Of a DNA stretch of 35,783 bases, positions 27,778-35,783 are shown in pieces. The stretch comes from Acidimicrobiaceae bacterium (GTDB taxonomy: Bacteria; Actinomycetota; Acidimicrobiia; Acidimicrobiales; Aldehydirespiratoraceae). The position numbers and the translations under genes were made by a program. Position 1 is the stretch's first letter, and every line of letters begins with the position of its first letter. The notes beneath the pieces were generated by a model that worked only from the letters and a program-made list of their open reading frames with translations, searched no databases and was not told where the DNA came from. The DNA lies in the NCBI GenBank assembly GCA_009835735.1, contig VXWX01000032.1, positions 1 through 35,783 on the forward strand, written 5' to 3'.

Positions 27778-29013
27778 ATGAGCAGCAGTCAGAATCCGAA
27801 TACGGTCGTGATAATCGGCGCCCTGGACACCAAGGGCGCGGAATTCGCCTTCGTCAAGGGACTCATCGAGAGCGAAGGGGTTGACACTCTCGTGGTCGAC
27901 TTCGGGACGATGGGGGAGCCCACCCTGGAGCCCGACGTCACCAGGGAGGAGGTCGCGTCGGCGGCGGACGGCGACATCTCCTATCTGGCCTCGGGCGAGC
28001 ACAAGGACGAGGCGATGCAGACCATGGCGGATGGCCTCGCAGTCGTCGTCCGCCGGTTGTACGAGGAGGGGAGGCTCGGCGGGATCATCGGCATGGGCGG
28101 CACCGGCGGCACCTCCATCGCCACCACGGGGATGCGCGTCCTGCCCGTGGGCGTGCCCAAGGTGATGGTGTCGACCGTGGCGGGAGGCGATGTCAGCGCC
28201 TACGCGGGGACCAGGGACATCACCTTCATCCCGTCAATAGTCGATGTGGCCGGGATCAACAGCATCAGCCGGGCTGTCTACTCCAATGCGGCGGGAGCGA
28301 TAGCCGGCATGGTGAGGCTGGAGCGCCCGCCGGCCGGCGAGGAGCGCCCGCTGGTCACCGCTTCCATGTTCGGCAACACGACCACCTGCGTCGAGCGAGC
28401 CCGCGGGGCCGTCGAGGCCGGCGGCTACGAGGTCCTGGTGTTTCACGCCACCGGCATCGGGGGCAGGACCATGGAGAGTCTGATCGCCGACGGCTACATC
28501 GCCGGCTCCCTGGACATCACGACCACCGAGTTGGCCGACTGGGTGTGTGGAGGCGTCTTCAGCGCGGGGCCGGAGCGCTGCCAGGCCGCGTCCGGCGCGG
28601 GCATCCCTGCCGTCGTCGTTCCGGGATGCGTCGACATGGCCAACTTCGACTCGATCGACACCGTCCCCGAGCGGTACGCGGGCCGGAACCTCTACCAGTG
28701 GAATCCGAACGTCACCCTGCTGCGCACCAATGTGGAGGAGAACGTCCGGATAGGCGAGATCCTCGCGGCAGCAGTCAACCTGTCCAATGCGCCGACCACC
28801 GTCCTGCTGCCCATGAGGGGTGTCTCCATGCTGGACAGCGAGGGGGAGAGGTTCTGGGACCCGGAGGCCGACCAGGCATGCTTCGACGCCATCCGCGGCA
28901 ACCTCCGGGCCGACGTCGCCGTCCATGAGGTGGACCGCAATATCAACGATCCCGAGTTCGCCGATCTGGCAGCCGGCACGCTGCTTGAGATGCTGCGGGA
29001 CACGGGCGGATAG
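27778..29013 (+). CDS. Tm-1-like ATP-binding domain protein (UPF0261)
   Basis: A 411-residue protein of the family named after the N-terminal domain of tomato Tm-1, an ATP-binding inhibitor of tomato mosaic virus replication; the bacterial function is unknown. Typical segments are [16 protein letters not shown] near the start (9-24), [14 protein letters not shown] (about 101-114), [14 protein letters not shown] (about 128-141) and the later [22 protein letters not shown] lies six bases before ATG 27778. It is followed 10 bases later by the PEP-hydrolase-family gene; the two domains are fused in plants and paired in many bacteria, so they should work together. Confidence 0.92.
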
Positions 29014-29023
29014 GAGCGGTCAA

Positions 29024-29845
29024 GTGGCACTGGCACGCAGCGAGATCCTCCGGCGGGTGCGCGCCGAGGTCGCAGCAGGCCGGCCGGTGGTCGGATGCGG
29101 CGCCGGCACCGGCATCTCCGCCAAGTGCGCCGAGGCGGGCGGGGCGGACCTCATCATCATCTACAACTCCGGCCGCTATCGCATGGCTGGAAGGGGCTCG
29201 CTGGCCGGTCTGATGCCCTACGGGGACGCCAACGGGATCGTGGTGGAGATGGCTGCCGAGGTGCTTCCCGTTGTCGAGGACACTCCGGTCCTGGCAGGGG
29301 TCTGCGGCACGGACCCGTTCCGGCTCATGCCGGTGTTCCTGAAGCAGCTGAAGGAGATCGGCTTCTCGGGCGTTCAGAACTTCCCGACGGTCGGGCTCAT
29401 CGACGGCGCCTTCAGGCGAGATCTGGAAGCCACCGGGATGGGATACGACAAGGAGGTCGACGCCATCCATTGCGCCCACTCGCTGGACATGTTCACCTCC
29501 CCGTATGTCTTCGACCAGCAGCAGGCGGTGATGATGGCCGAGGCGGGCGCGGACATGCTCGTCGCCCATGTCGGCCTGACCACGTCGGGCACTATCGGTG
29601 CGGCTGACGCCATGACTCTCGACGAGGCGATCGAACGGGTGAACGCGATCGCCGAGGCCGGCCACGGAGTCCGCGATGACATCGTGGTCATCTGCCACGG
29701 TGGGCCCTTCGACGAGCCGTCCAACGTGGGCGAAGCACTGTCGAGGCTTCCGAGCAGCGTCGGATTCTTCGGCGCTTCGAGCATCGAACGCCTGCCGACC
29801 GAGCGGGCCATCACCGAGCAGGTCAGGGCCTTCAAGGCCCTCTAG
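29024..29845 (+). CDS. Phosphoenolpyruvate hydrolase-family TIM-barrel protein
   Basis: Starting at GTG 29024, with AGGAG seven bases before, the protein has 273 residues. It matches the TIM-barrel family annotated as PEP hydrolase-like, equivalent to the C-terminal half of plant Tm-1. Landmarks are [20 protein letters not shown] (about residues 23-42), [18 protein letters not shown] (about 45-62), [13 protein letters not shown] (about 116-128) and C-H-G-G-P-F-D-E-P near 224. The enzymatic role in bacteria is not established to my knowledge. It is operonic with the Tm-1-like gene and perhaps with proV-proW. Confidence 0.9.
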
Positions 29846-29871: not shown

Positions 29872-31026
29872 CTAGCGGCGGAGGAGTTGCTTGAGCCGGC
29901 GGACGGCGGGCGTCCACACCCACTCGGGCTCGGTGTAGCGGCGGAAGTTCTCGCCGGGCAGCCCCGTGGGGTCGTAGAAGCTCGTGTCGGCTTGCTTGCG
30001 CATCTCGCTCGTGCGCTTCAGTATCTGCAAGGTGGCATAGGCCGTCCCCTTGTGGGTCCAGCCCTGCCGCTGGTAGTTCCAGTTGTCGGGGGCCAGGTCC
30101 TGCGCCGTGGCGAAGTGCTTCAGGGCGCGCTCGCTGTCGCCCACCGCCTCGAAGTGCAGCGCCAGCTTGAACGTCGCCTCGGCCAGCAGCCTGTCGTCGT
30201 CGACGGGCTTGAGCCGCGCGGCCAGCTCCCTGCTCGACCAGACGTGCTCGCTATCGGCTCCGCGCTCGATCCAGTCCCGGGTCGCCTCGGCGAACGAGTC
30301 GTCGCCCAGGCGGACCTTGCCCAGGCCGAACCCGACGGTGGTCTCAGCCGGGTACACCCCTTCGTTGCTGCGAACGATCTTCCCGTTCTCGTCGATCCAG
30401 GCGGCCGACGGCACGTTCACCCAGCCGAACATCGAGCTGATCTCGTGGGTCGGGTCGATGACGCACCGGTAGGTCGGCGAGGCCCGGTTGAACCACTTGT
30501 TGACCGTGGGGGGACCCGCCGAGTCCTGGGCCACGCTGATCAGCTCGAACCGGTCCGGACCGATCGACTCGTACAGTTCCTGCCAGACCGGCAGGCTGAA
30601 ACGGCAGCCTCACCAGGAGGCCCAGGTGAACAGCACCACCTTTCGGCCCCGCAGGTCTGAGAGCCTCAACGTGTCGCCGTTGCACTGGGTCACCTCGAAG
30701 TCGGGGGCGATAGCCGATTCCAGCCCCATCTGACGGACTGCGGGCACCGAGCCGAGGCTCCACACGTCGCCGTCGCGCACGTACTTCTGGCCGAGCATGT
30801 CGGCGAACTCCGAGTAGTTGAACCACACCCAGTCGTCGGCGTCGGCGATCCACTCCTCACGCTTGTGCTCCGGCAGCGGCACGCAGATCTCTCCCAGGCA
30901 CGCGCCCTCGGGCTTCATCTGCCAGCCGGTCGCCTCGGGGAGCTCGCCGAGCCGCACCCACAAGACCCCGTCGGCGTCGGTCCGCTGGGCGACCTCGTTT
31001 GTCTTGCCGTCTGCGAGAATGATCAC
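29872..31026 (-). CDS. Selenocysteine-containing thioredoxin-fold protein (ResA/TlpA-like, W-A-S-W-U-G-C-R)
   Basis: Read through one in-frame TGA (30612-30610), this gene encodes 384 residues. GTG 31026 (M-I-I-L-A-D-G-K) is chosen because GGAG lies six bases upstream. The N-terminal part has a Cys pair in G-A-C-L-G-E-I-C-V-P-L-P (C43, C48). A redoxin domain follows: A-P-D-F-E-V-T (108-114), L-S-D-L-R-G-R-K-V-V-L-F-T-W-A-S-W, the TGA as residue 139, then G-C-R (C141), and the cis-Pro loop V-P-S-A-A-W (about P206). Residues about 280-316 resemble a TPR helix pair. The TGA sits where TlpA/ResA proteins have the first redox Cys, and a SECIS-like hairpin follows. I recall a family described by the motif WAxxUGC, which this fits. 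Without Sec insertion it would be two fragments. Divergent from ridA. No signal peptide, so probably cytoplasmic. Confidence 0.9.
30579..30612 (-). promoter_or_regulatory. Bacterial SECIS element with the Sec UGA codon
   Basis: The UGA codon is 30612-30610. Starting 14 bases later, at 30595-30579, the RNA reads CCUGCC-GGUCU-GGCAGG, a perfect six-pair stem with a five-base loop. E. coli fdhF SECIS, as I recall it, has UGC-A-GGUCUG at its tip; this element has UGC-C-GGUCUG. The loop starts at base 24 counted from the U of UGA, against base 22 in fdhF. The G-U of the loop is the key SelB contact in the known system. This would recruit SelB and Sec-tRNA to the UGA. Confidence 0.85.
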
Positions 31027-31138: not shown

Positions 31139-31537
31139 ATGAATATGGAGCGCAGGATCATCGACCCCTGGACGTGGCAGGACGAATACGGGTTCCACCA
31201 GGGCCATGAAGTCGTCAACCCGACCCGCACCCTCTACCTGTCGGGCCAAACCTCGCTCGACGCCGACGGCAATCCGGTGCACGTGGGCGACATGGCCGGC
31301 CAGATCCGCCAGGTCATAGACAACATCGAGGCCGTCCTCGCCGAGGCCGGCATGAGCCTCGCCGACATCGTGCGCATCAACATCTTCACCACCGACATGG
31401 ACCTCTTCTTCGAGCACGCCGATGAGCTCGAACCGCTTCGAGAGGCCGGGACCCGGTACGCATCCACCCTCGTCGAGGTCACCAGGCTGGCGTTCCCCGA
31501 GTTCCTAGTCGAGATCGAGGCAACCGCCGCGAAGTAG
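31139..31537 (+). CDS. RidA family protein
   Basis: A 132-residue protein of the RidA/YjgF family, whose members hydrolyse reactive enamine/imine intermediates of amino-acid metabolism to keto acids and ammonia. Family segments are T-L-Y-L-S-G-Q-T-S-L-D-A-D-G-N (about 37-51), the helix Q-I-R-Q-V-I-D-N-I-E-A-V-L-A-E-A-G-M (about 60-77), I-V-R-I-N-I-F-T-T-D (about 82-91) and V-E-V-T-R-L-A-F-P-E-F-L-V-E-I-E near the end. The substrate-binding Arg of archetypal RidA is probably R in G-T-R-Y-A-S-T-L; the surrounding sequence differs from the canonical form, so it may belong to a non-archetypal Rid subgroup. It is divergent from the selenoprotein gene. Length is normal. Confidence 0.92.
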   Translation: MNMERRIIDPWTWQDEYGFHQGHEVVNPTRTLYLSGQTSLDADGNPVHVGDMAGQIRQVIDNIEAVLAEAGMSLADIVRINIFTTDMDLFFEHADELEPLREAGTRYASTLVEVTRLAFPEFLVEIEATAAK

Positions 31538-32623: not shown

Positions 32624-35600
32624 GTGTCAACTATCACAATTAGGGTTGTGCTTGGGGCGGTGCTGATGGTGTTGTTGGCGCCGTCGGCGGTGTTTGTGGG
32701 GCTGGGCGGATCGGGATCGGTGCAGGCTCAGGGGAGCGACAACCAGAGGGCCGTCAGGATCGACGTCACCCTCACCGGCAACTTCGTCCAGGGTGCGCTG
32801 GCTTCAGGTGAGACGCTTCCGGCTGACGCGACATTCGGCAGCGTGGCCTTCGCGACGCACGAGAGCACGGTCAGCTACTTCAATGCGGGCGAGGCGGCCA
32901 GTGCCGGGCTCAAGGCATTCGCCGAGACCGGTTCGACCGAGCTGCTAGTGGAGGAGTTCGCCGCACAGACCAACGGCGCCAACGTCTATCCGACGAAGAA
33001 GAATGGGGGGACTTTCCCGCAGGGTGCGACGGCTGCACAGGTGTTCGGGTCCCACCGCGCCTCCCGTGGCCAGGACCATTTGACTTTCGTGGCCAGTTTG
33101 AGCGAGTCGCCCGACTGGTTCGTCGGGGCTCGCAATATCGAGCTGCGGCCGGGCGGCGTGTGGATTGAGGAGTTGGAGGTGGACCTTTTTGCTTGGGATG
33201 CGGGCACGGACAGTGGCACGGACTGGGACTCGGCGGATTCGGTCACCGATCCACCGGCGAGTGTCGCCTCCCTGAAGGGCGTGGGCAAGTTCAGCGGTAC
33301 GCCGGTCGCCAAGCTGAAGATCACCATGCTCTCCCCGCCGAGCAGCGGGACTTACCAGCGGGTCCTTAGGGCGGACGCCAACTCGCTGGACGGCGCGCTC
33401 AACGTGTTCTGGGATGCGTACCCGCCCAAGTTCAAGGTGATTCGCAACCGCCTGCACACGGTGGACTTCGACCGATATCTGGTTGCCTGGAGGTCGGGTG
33501 ACGAGGAGTTCCAGACCGATCTGGGTGGGGACCGGGTCAAGGTGGTCATGGGCCGCGACAGCACGAACACGGTGCTCGAGGGGCTGACCAACGGCACCGA
33601 GTACACGGTGAGGGTGACCCACGCCAATGCGGTCGGCGCGGCGGACCATCACTCGCGGCCATCGACGGCGACTCCGGTTGCGAGGGAGCGGGTGCTGGTC
33701 AGCACGTTCGGCCGAGGGCTCAGTCACAGCTGGGGACTGAGGCTGAATGCGACCGCCAACGATCGCGGGAGCAAGTTCGCGTACAACCGGTTCACCACCG
33801 GCCCCAGCGCGGCCAATTTGGGCAGCGTCACGTTCGCGAGGCTTCAGCCCTCATTCAGTTCCTCATCGCCCACAGTCCCGAAGCTCGAACTGCACTTGCT
33901 TGAGGACTTGCCGGGCGGCGAGGTCGGCGACTCCAAGTTCTCCCAACCGGGCCAGCCCGGTGCGCTGGTAGGGAAGTTCGTCTCGCCGCCGGAATACCAC
34001 GATGGTCCGGCCAAGTTTGTCGCGCCGGGCGACGGTTTCGCTCTCGAGGCTTCGACCGACTACTGGCTGAAGCTGGTGTTGGTCCAGGGCGAGGTGGTGA
34101 TTCCGATGACCATGATCGGCGGTCCGGATCCACACAACGGTCTGGATCCGGGCAGCCTGACCGGGTGGGACATCAGCAATGCATGCCAGTGGAGCCTCGT
34201 TGACATCTGGCATTCACATCGCACCCGCATGTGCAGCTATTACTCGAACTTCATGGTCTTGTTGAGCGGTCCGGTCGAGTCGACGTTGCCGCTGGCGAGC
34301 ATCAGCGGCGGATCGGCAATCGAGGGACAGAGCATCGAGTTCACGGTCGAGCTGTCCAGCGCACCCAGCGCCCAGGCCACCGTCCAGTACGACACCGTCG
34401 ACGGCCGCGGCCGCCTGTCGGCGACGACCAGCAACAACGACTACACCGCGGTCAGCGAAGGCACGGTCACGTTCGCTGCGGGCGAGACCACCCAGACGAT
34501 CTCCATCGCGACCAGCGACGACTCGATCGACGAGCACGACGAGCGGTTCATCGTCCGCCTCAGCAGCCCGTCGAGCAATATCGCGCTCAGCGAGCTCGAC
34601 CGCGCGGCCGGCTGGATCATCAACAACGACCAGACCGCGTCGAGCGATTCGACGTTGGCCGGGATCACGCTGACCGACCAGGACGGCAACACGATCGCTC
34701 TGAACGAGACGTTTGATCCGCTCCAGTTCGTCTACACCGCAGATGCCGGCGCCAGCGTGGACACGATGAACCTGGATCTGTCGTTCGGTGAGGGCATAGA
34801 CCCGAACTACATTCGCTACTTCGACGCATTCGGCAAGGTCAAAGAAGGCAACAAGTCACAAGCCAGCAGCGCGCAGTTCAGCCGCATCGGACCCGGCGTC
34901 AACCTGCTCAAGGTCCTGATCACCTCCAAGGACCGCCGCCGGGAGTCGCTCTACAAGGTCATGGTCGACAAGGCCGCCTCGTCGGACGCGTCGATCGCCA
35001 CGCTCGTGCTTCAGGACTTCAAATTCAACGACTTCGTCCTGTCGCCGGCGTTCAGCCCCACGGTCACCGAGTACACGGCAACCGTTGGGAACAACCCGCC
35101 GTTCTTCGTCGATGTCGGTCTCAACCACGCCGGCGCAGACGCCGAGGTCTCCGTCAACGGCGACGTCGTCGTCCCCTACAGCTTCGATTACCCCTCGGAC
35201 GCCTTCGACATGCCAGCCGGGGACAAGACAGTTGCCATAGAGGTCACCGCCGAGGACGGCACCACCCGGACCTACACGTTCACGCTCGAGGCACAGCAAG
35301 GCGATGTCCCCGCCAACCAGACCGCCACTGGCCTACCCGCCATCACGGGCACACCGCAGGTGGGTGAGACGCTCAGCGCGGACATCTCCGGGATCAGCGA
35401 CGCCAACGGGCTCGCCAACGTGCAGTTCAGCTACCAGTGGATACGCAACGACGGCAACACCGACACGCACGTCGTCGGCGCCACCGCACAGACGCACACC
35501 CTGACACGGGCTGATCAGGGCAAGACCATCAAGGTGAGCGTCTCGTTTACCGACGACGACGGGTACACCGAGAGCCTCACCAGCGCCGCCACCACCCAGG

Positions 35601-35783
35601 TCTCGCCGCCACCGAACCAGACCGCCACCGGCCAGCCAACCATCACCGGGACCGCCGTGCTGGGTGAGACGCTCAGCGCGGACATCTCGGGGATCAGCGA
35701 CGCCAACGGGCTCGCCAACGTGCAGTTCAGCTACCAGTGGATACGCAACGACGGCAACACCGACACGCACGTCGTCGGCGCCA
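32624..35783 (+). CDS. Large secreted multidomain protein: Spondin_N, FN3-like, Calx-beta, cadherin-like and tandem repeats (partial)
   Basis: An uninterrupted frame from GTG 32624 runs off the window after 1,053 codons. Residues 1-35 are a signal peptide (V-L-G-A-V-L-M-V-L-L-A-P-S-A-V-F-V-G-L, then V-Q-A-Q). Residues about 43-200 resemble bacterial Spondin_N: V-A-F-A-T-H-E-S, N-A-G-E-A-A-S-A-G-L-K-A-F-A-E-T-G, and later D-A-G-T-D-S-G-T-D-W. An FN3-like part (about 243-345) contains G-L-T-N-G-T-E-Y-T-V-R-V. Residues 355-545 are a beta-rich domain I cannot name. Calx-beta follows (about 554-671; D-Y-T-A-V-S-E-G-T-V-T-F-A-A-G), then two cadherin-like beta-sandwich domains (about 671-895), then 100-residue repeats from about 897. 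It is probably a cell-surface or secreted adhesion protein. No clear ribosome binding site precedes GTG; TACTGT (32612-32617) lies seven bases upstream, so the mRNA may be leaderless. Confidence 0.85.
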   Translation, partial: MSTITIRVVLGAVLMVLLAPSAVFVGLGGSGSVQAQGSDNQRAVRIDVTLTGNFVQGALASGETLPADATFGSVAFATHESTVSYFNAGEAASAGLKAFAETGSTELLVEEFAAQTNGANVYPTKKNGGTFPQGATAAQVFGSHRASRGQDHLTFVASLSESPDWFVGARNIELRPGGVWIEELEVDLFAWDAGTDSGTDWDSADSVTDPPASVASLKGVGKFSGTPVAKLKITMLSPPSSGTYQRVLRADANSLDGALNVFWDAYPPKFKVIRNRLHTVDFDRYLVAWRSGDEEFQTDLGGDRVKVVMGRDSTNTVLEGLTNGTEYTVRVTHANAVGAADHHSRPSTATPVARERVLVSTFGRGLSHSWGLRLNATANDRGSKFAYNRFTTGPSAANLGSVTFARLQPSFSSSSPTVPKLELHLLEDLPGGEVGDSKFSQPGQPGALVGKFVSPPEYHDGPAKFVAPGDGFALEASTDYWLKLVLVQGEVVIPMTMIGGPDPHNGLDPGSLTGWDISNACQWSLVDIWHSHRTRMCSYYSNFMVLLSGPVESTLPLASISGGSAIEGQSIEFTVELSSAPSAQATVQYDTVDGRGRLSATTSNNDYTAVSEGTVTFAAGETTQTISIATSDDSIDEHDERFIVRLSSPSSNIALSELDRAAGWIINNDQTASSDSTLAGITLTDQDGNTIALNETFDPLQFVYTADAGASVDTMNLDLSFGEGIDPNYIRYFDAFGKVKEGNKSQASSAQFSRIGPGVNLLKVLITSKDRRRESLYKVMVDKAASSDASIATLVLQDFKFNDFVLSPAFSPTVTEYTATVGNNPPFFVDVGLNHAGADAEVSVNGDVVVPYSFDYPSDAFDMPAGDKTVAIEVTAEDGTTRTYTFTLEAQQGDVPANQTATGLPAITGTPQVGETLSADISGISDANGLANVQFSYQWIRNDGNTDTHVVGATAQTHTLTRADQGKTIKVSVSFTDDDGYTESLTSAATTQVSPPPNQTATGQPTITGTAVLGETLSADISGISDANGLANVQFSYQWIRNDGNTDTHVVGA
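35315..35783 (+). repeat. 300-base in-frame tandem repeat in the surface protein
   Basis: Unit 1 starts at 35315 and unit 2 at 35615, a period of exactly 300 bases or 100 residues. Each unit opens N-Q-T-A-T-G and includes G-E-T-L-S-A-D-I-S-G-I-S-D-A-N-G and F-S-Y-Q-W-I-R-N-D-G. Apart from about 50 variable bases near the start, the two copies are almost identical up to the window end. The second unit is cut by the window, so the copy number is unknown. Confidence 0.93.

Follow-up and report, generated by a model that had tools for sequence, protein, structure and literature searches.

Selenoproteins that carry selenocysteine (Sec, U) in a U-G-C motif have been recorded under several names. 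The 2008 GOS survey placed a 'Prx-like (UGC-containing)' family in pfam00578 and counted 46 selenoproteins and 855 Cys homologues in it (PMC2398784), and other sources have entered a 'UGC-containing Prx-like protein' (PMC9312934) and a 'UGC-containing TlpA disulfide reductase family protein' (PMC13188914), both with the motif UGC. The term 'UGC' is absent from the main text of PMC5029168, one of the two sources cited for the UGC family in a 2026 review. The passages available from this literature name no substrate for the UGC family and hold no sequence, N-terminal domain or hairpin, and the protein studied here was likened to the published families by its pfam00578/cd02966 domain and its U-G-C motif alone. 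In NCBIfam, the profile NF041054 (WAxxUGC_long) stands for a 'ResA-like WAxxUGC motif-containing protein', and from the shared domain and motif we infer that NF041054 and the UGC families, as far as these passages describe them, are one family. U-x-C is also recorded, in the passages available, as the motif of several selenoprotein families; the spacing is therefore no obstacle to the reading of the earlier note on this DNA, which held that a direct Sec-S bond across U-x-C would be tight.

The locus examined here lies in a window of 35,783 nucleotides, by which we mean the whole stretch of DNA analysed, from an Acidimicrobiaceae bacterium (contig VXWX01000032.1). On the minus strand of the window, a frame of 384 codons runs from a GTG start at 31026 to a TAG stop at 29872 (29872..31026), with GGAG five bases 5' of the GTG. 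The single stop within this frame is a TGA at 30612-30610 (30610..30612, minus strand), which is codon 139 and falls in the motif W-A-S-W-U-G-C-R. Two open frames joined by this TGA had previously been read as one redoxin, and that reading is borne out, as the TGA is the sole stop and is spanned by single domain matches (AhpC-TSA over residues 106-218 and NF041054 over residues 25-328). The residue numbers given earlier for C43, C48 and C141 agree with ours, and the placement of the TGA at the redox position of the motif is upheld by 18 of 18 fetched relatives, all of which have TGA at the aligned codon. Our conclusion is that this gene, although apparently interrupted by a stop, very probably specifies a single intact redox enzyme whose active site contains selenocysteine, and we put the probability that the UGA of codon 139 codes for Sec, as judged from sequence evidence, at about 95%.

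A search against selenoprotein families, which had been proposed as a check, returned NF041054 with an E-value of 1.2e-80, and both the motif (WAxxUGC, here W-A-S-W-U-G-C) and the Sec position agreed, as did the overall length. The score of 271.4 bits (258.1 bits in the genome search) nevertheless stayed under the curated cut-off of 300, and the match stopped at residue 328, leaving a tail of about 56 residues outside. Three relatives from the same clade scored 264.6, 268.0 and 271.5 bits and a partial, more distant one 215.6, and the cut-off thus excludes every clade member that was scored. By profile comparison, the protein is a close relative of NF041054 but falls outside the family under the curators' rule. 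ResA proper (NF002854) was considered as an assignment and rejected, with 60.3 bits against a cut-off of 170. This kind of selenoprotein is accordingly already known, and the present protein is a divergent relative of a recorded family. No paper pairing 'selenoprotein' with 'WAxxUGC' was found in the literature search, and the portions available of the literature on Acidimicrobi- selenoproteins hold nothing about the present protein. Subject to this check for earlier notice, which was not exhaustive, what is added here is a divergent Acidimicrobiia clade, an unclassified N-terminal domain with an invariant C43/C48 pair, and an LPxWQ segment constrained jointly as protein and as SECIS. A clade known largely from metagenome-assembled genomes is thereby set beside the UGC selenoprotein family.

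Orthologous sites were compared in a larger set of genomes. A scan of named genomes yielded the 18 relatives, mostly from Acidimicrobiia metagenome-assembled genomes, of which 16 showed 70-97% identity and two 28-31%; matches were obtained in 21 of 396 genomes of the phylum at 1e-40 and in 97 of 296 genomes of the class at 1e-15. The 146 matching loci were reduced to 130 by leaving out ten ordinary CxxC paralogues (L019, L020, L099-L106), five fragments without the site (L051, L052, L055, L061, L062) and one duplicate (L108, identical to L048), and the site in the remaining loci was located by its motif. These 130 sites are a non-random sample, collected through their resemblance to the window protein and to NF041054, and include the window gene (L018), near-copies and second copies within one genome; the counts are not independent events because the sequences are related. 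In this sample the codon was TGA at 118 sites (window gene included) and TGC or TGT at 12, and homologues with a residue other than Cys or Sec, which the earlier note had named as evidence against its reading, were found at 0 of the 130. A FastTree tree, which was built without the columns of the site and has weak support on 42 of 127 inner branches, needed at least six changes between Sec and Cys. Within one genus (g305), two genomes (G451, G528) had the Sec form and two (G471, G561) the Cys form; selA was seen in both of the former and not in the latter two, which are 88 and 74% complete. In one Sec orthologue (L080), U-H-C replaces U-G-C.

These counts bear on two other explanations of the TGA. 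An error of sequencing, or decay of the gene to a pseudogene, would account for the fact that this codon reads as a stop in table 11, which is the one point in its favor; it is made highly improbable by the recurrence of TGA at the same codon across the orthologues, by a gene that has no second stop, and by the RNA-level selection downstream that is described below. General decoding of TGA as an amino acid such as Trp, in favor of which no evidence emerged, is equally improbable, since the non-TGA forms have Cys and never Trp, the Sec machinery is present in the genome, and TGA ends 10 of 16 other long open reading frames inspected in the window, two of these ten being Pfam-supported genes. 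The last count agrees with the earlier view that TGA is an ordinary stop elsewhere in the window, on a set in which not all members are verified genes, because the 16 frames were picked by length and six of them were scanned for families.

The genome to which the window belongs (3.29 Mb in 167 contigs, 84% complete) was searched for the components of Sec insertion, as the earlier note had advised, and selA, selD and tRNA-Sec (selC) were all present. The selA match (3.0e-111) and the selD match (8.0e-108) were over their cut-offs, which were passed in one and two of 14 control genomes, respectively. The tRNA-Sec gene scored 68.3 bits and was called tRNA-SeC by ARAGORN; the gathering score of 47 is unspecific on its own, being passed in five of the 14 controls and by one tRNA-Ser of the genome (48.5 bits). 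Within the window itself, ARAGORN gave no tRNA and Rfam gave no match at gathering scores. For SelB the outcome was divided. No match over the cut-off was obtained in this assembly of 84% completeness and 167 contigs, and matches below the cut-off of the selB model turned up in 14 of 14 control genomes; a 388-residue frame matching the C-terminal part of SelB does, however, run off the end of contig C46, and along its entire length this fragment shows 96% identity to the SelB of two relatives. SelB was over the cut-off in six of eight relatives' genomes searched. The selD gene (L016, G000:C102:9535-10449) is itself a predicted selenoprotein gene, with an in-frame TGA at GAG-U-ACK.

The occurrence of selA was compared with the residue at codon 139. 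Of the 79 Sec-form genomes in the class sample, 76 showed selA; of the 12 with the Cys form, one did (Fisher p 9e-11, with genomes treated as independent). This table was compiled by eye from 201 matching genomes, several of them incomplete on both sides; the 79 are the class-sample genomes with TGA in the match, the window genome included, and genomes represented by nothing more than a fragment or a CxxC paralogue were not counted. The exceptions were three Sec-form genomes in which selA was not seen (G650, G546 and G532, which are 96, 79 and 70% complete) and one Cys-form genome having selA (G520).

Downstream of the UGA, a bSECIS-like hairpin, CCUGCC-GGUCU-GGCAGG, was recognized at 30579..30595 on the minus strand, with its apical loop starting 20 nt past the UGA. 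A stem of six pairs, CCUGCC/GGCAGG, carries the loop GGUCU, which is presumably the same as the E. coli fdhF loop, and the hairpin lies within the codons for L145-P-V-W-Q149. The 17-nt hairpin alone, excised with its structure already known, has a minimum free energy of -10.0 kcal/mol (z -3.27), and the folding energy of stretches of 41-109 nt that follow or surround the UGA was unexceptional against shuffles (z -1.19, -0.16 and -0.46). In the published bSECIS model, as the passages available give it, the loop opens with two G residues and then G or U, its ends pair, the spacing is 16-37 nt and the energy is at most -7.5 (PMC13188914). The hairpins of the Sec genes resemble this consensus in the loop GG (118 of 118) and the pairing loop ends, and that of the window gene also in spacing and energy; the third loop base agrees with it as G or U in 113 of 118 Sec genes and departs from it as A in the other five.

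As L-P-x-W-Q can encode such a stem by chance, selection at the RNA level was tested apart from the protein. All six pairs considered, five of the stem and one of the loop, are present in 115 of the 118 Sec genes as compared with four of 12 Cys genes. When the five residues were recoded at random with pooled codon usage in 500 draws, the six pairs formed on average in 21.3 and at most in 38 of the 118 Sec genes, far from the observed number, whereas the four Cys genes fell within their recodings (mean 1.7, maximum 7). Both bases of the loop pair are third codon positions, and 117 of the 118 Sec genes have a Watson-Crick pair there (G-C in 45, C-G in 60 and A-U in 12), compared with a mean of 49.6 and a maximum of 67 in 2000 shuffles; on the FastTree tree this pair has undergone at least 18 changes. 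In 106 of the 118 the stem reads CUGCC/GGCAG, and two-sided changes that preserve the pairing occur as UUGCC/GGCAA in three, GUCCC/GGGAC in L056 and CUUCC/GGAAG in L134. The codon of residue 147 always begins with G in the Sec forms (Val in 66, Gly in 47 and Asp in five of 118), and the Cys forms have Ala in seven, Gly in three and Leu in two of 12. Judging from these comparisons, the SECIS-like hairpin is selected at the RNA level in Sec genes, for which the synonymous test is the real evidence. The Cys forms serve as a natural experiment in this respect: selA was not seen in 11 of their 12 genomes, and the hairpin in their coding sequence is kept no better than recoding gives. The compensated stems of L056 and L134 alter protein residues of the stem region as well.

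Competition between SelB and the release factor at UGA codons is known in bacteria. It would be consistent with inefficient decoding of codon 139, in which Sec insertion depends on the supply of selenium and much of the output is an N-terminal fragment of 138 residues; such a fragment would keep the entire N-terminal domain with C43 and C48. The conservation of the hairpin argues instead for selection on readthrough, and we regard a major role for the fragment as improbable.

The predicted Sec protein appears to be built of three parts. Its N-terminal domain (residues 1-110; 30697..31026, minus strand) contains the motif GWxxKPEGxCxxxxCxP and could be assigned to no described family or fold: for the window member Pfam gave no match at E<=1, the best value among 17 members being 0.082; the best E-value of a PDB profile search was 0.68; and Foldseek, run with a moderate model (pLDDT 74, pTM 0.61), found no PDB fold within E<=0.001 (best E 0.44). 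C43 and C48 are each invariant in 129 of 129 orthologues, which lends weight to the earlier suggestion that this second Cys pair matters and makes it a candidate partner of the active site. The thioredoxin-fold domain (AhpC-TSA, ResA/TlpA-like; about residues 106-226, 30349..30711, minus strand) holds W138-U139-G140-C141 and V205-P206, the latter of which we take to be the cis-Pro position. It passed the gathering cut-offs of both PF00578 (AhpC-TSA; 64.1 against 26 bits) and PF08534 (Redoxin; 56.8 against 26.6 bits). C141 and W148 are invariant in 130 of 130 orthologues and P206 in 128 of 128. Towards the C-terminus, a weak TPR-like stretch was noted at residues 282-315 (30082..30183, minus strand; TPR_2 E=0.011, 16.3 bits against a cut-off of 27). 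The full-length model is of moderate quality (pLDDT 69, pTM 0.65), with residues 314-384 mostly below 50.

The enzyme is likely to act as a thiol-disulfide oxidoreductase or a thiol peroxidase. For residues of about 100-237, the best matches in both sequence and Foldseek searches were thioredoxin-family, ResA, DsbE-like and TlpA chains (PDB 3kcm, 4nmu, 3gl3, 1st9 and 1jfu), with which this region shares the thioredoxin-fold domain, and peroxiredoxins stood lower down both lists. The ResA/TlpA/DsbE-like oxidoreductases carry C-x-x-C, whereas the present protein has U-x-C and is matched by them in its middle domain only. ResA is an exported protein; no signal peptide was apparent by eye in the present protein, which may thus be cytosolic. 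A Sec protein acting mainly as a selenium-dependent thiol peroxidase of the peroxiredoxin kind is a serious, if less probable, alternative: the top Pfam match is AhpC-TSA (1.6e-17), and the UGC family was filed as Prx-like in the passage available from the 2008 survey (PMC2398784), while the closest solved relatives, by sequence and by fold, and a TlpA-like site, with W (114) or Y (16) before the redox residue in the 130 orthologues and the constant thiol of C141, weigh against it. Disulfide oxidoreductase activity was ranked first because of this TlpA-like site, and we lean slightly towards it as the main activity.

We propose the following scheme for the protein. SelB with Sec-tRNA(Sec) would read the UGA of codon 139 as selenocysteine, guided by the hairpin in the L145-P-V-W-Q149 codons, and the product would comprise the unclassified N-terminal domain with C43/C48, the ResA/TlpA-like thioredoxin-fold domain and a C-terminal helical region. 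Sec139 would replace the nucleophilic Cys, with C141 as the nearest thiol; its selenolate may attack a disulfide or a peroxide, C141 may resolve the intermediate as a Sec-S bond, and C43/C48 or an external thioredoxin-type donor may then re-reduce this bond. As a bolder and rather doubtful extension, the N-terminal domain might be a fused redox partner whose C43/C48 pair relays the electrons of the Sec139-Cys141 bond in a two-centre seleno-relay, and LPxWQ might be kept in the Sec forms largely as SECIS, with other residues tolerated after the loss of Sec. The invariant C43/C48 pair offers a concrete target for learning the function of the family.

Gene context was considered as a functional clue and set aside. 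The divergent neighbour (31139..31537, plus strand) encodes a Rid-family-like protein (TIGR00004, 6.1e-16, 58.8 bits against a cut-off of 106) and the convergent neighbour (28820..29845, plus strand) a PEP-hydrolase-like protein (PF09370, 8.1e-125), and we regard both as lying outside the system. In the fetched flanks of the 18 relatives, several of which are short, the Rid-like neighbour was found in five and the PEP-hydrolase-like neighbour in one, and therefore no operon partner emerged. Further along the window, a large open reading frame at 32624-35782, open at the window end, gave Spondin_N, Calx-beta, cadherin-like and fn3 matches and possibly encodes a surface protein.
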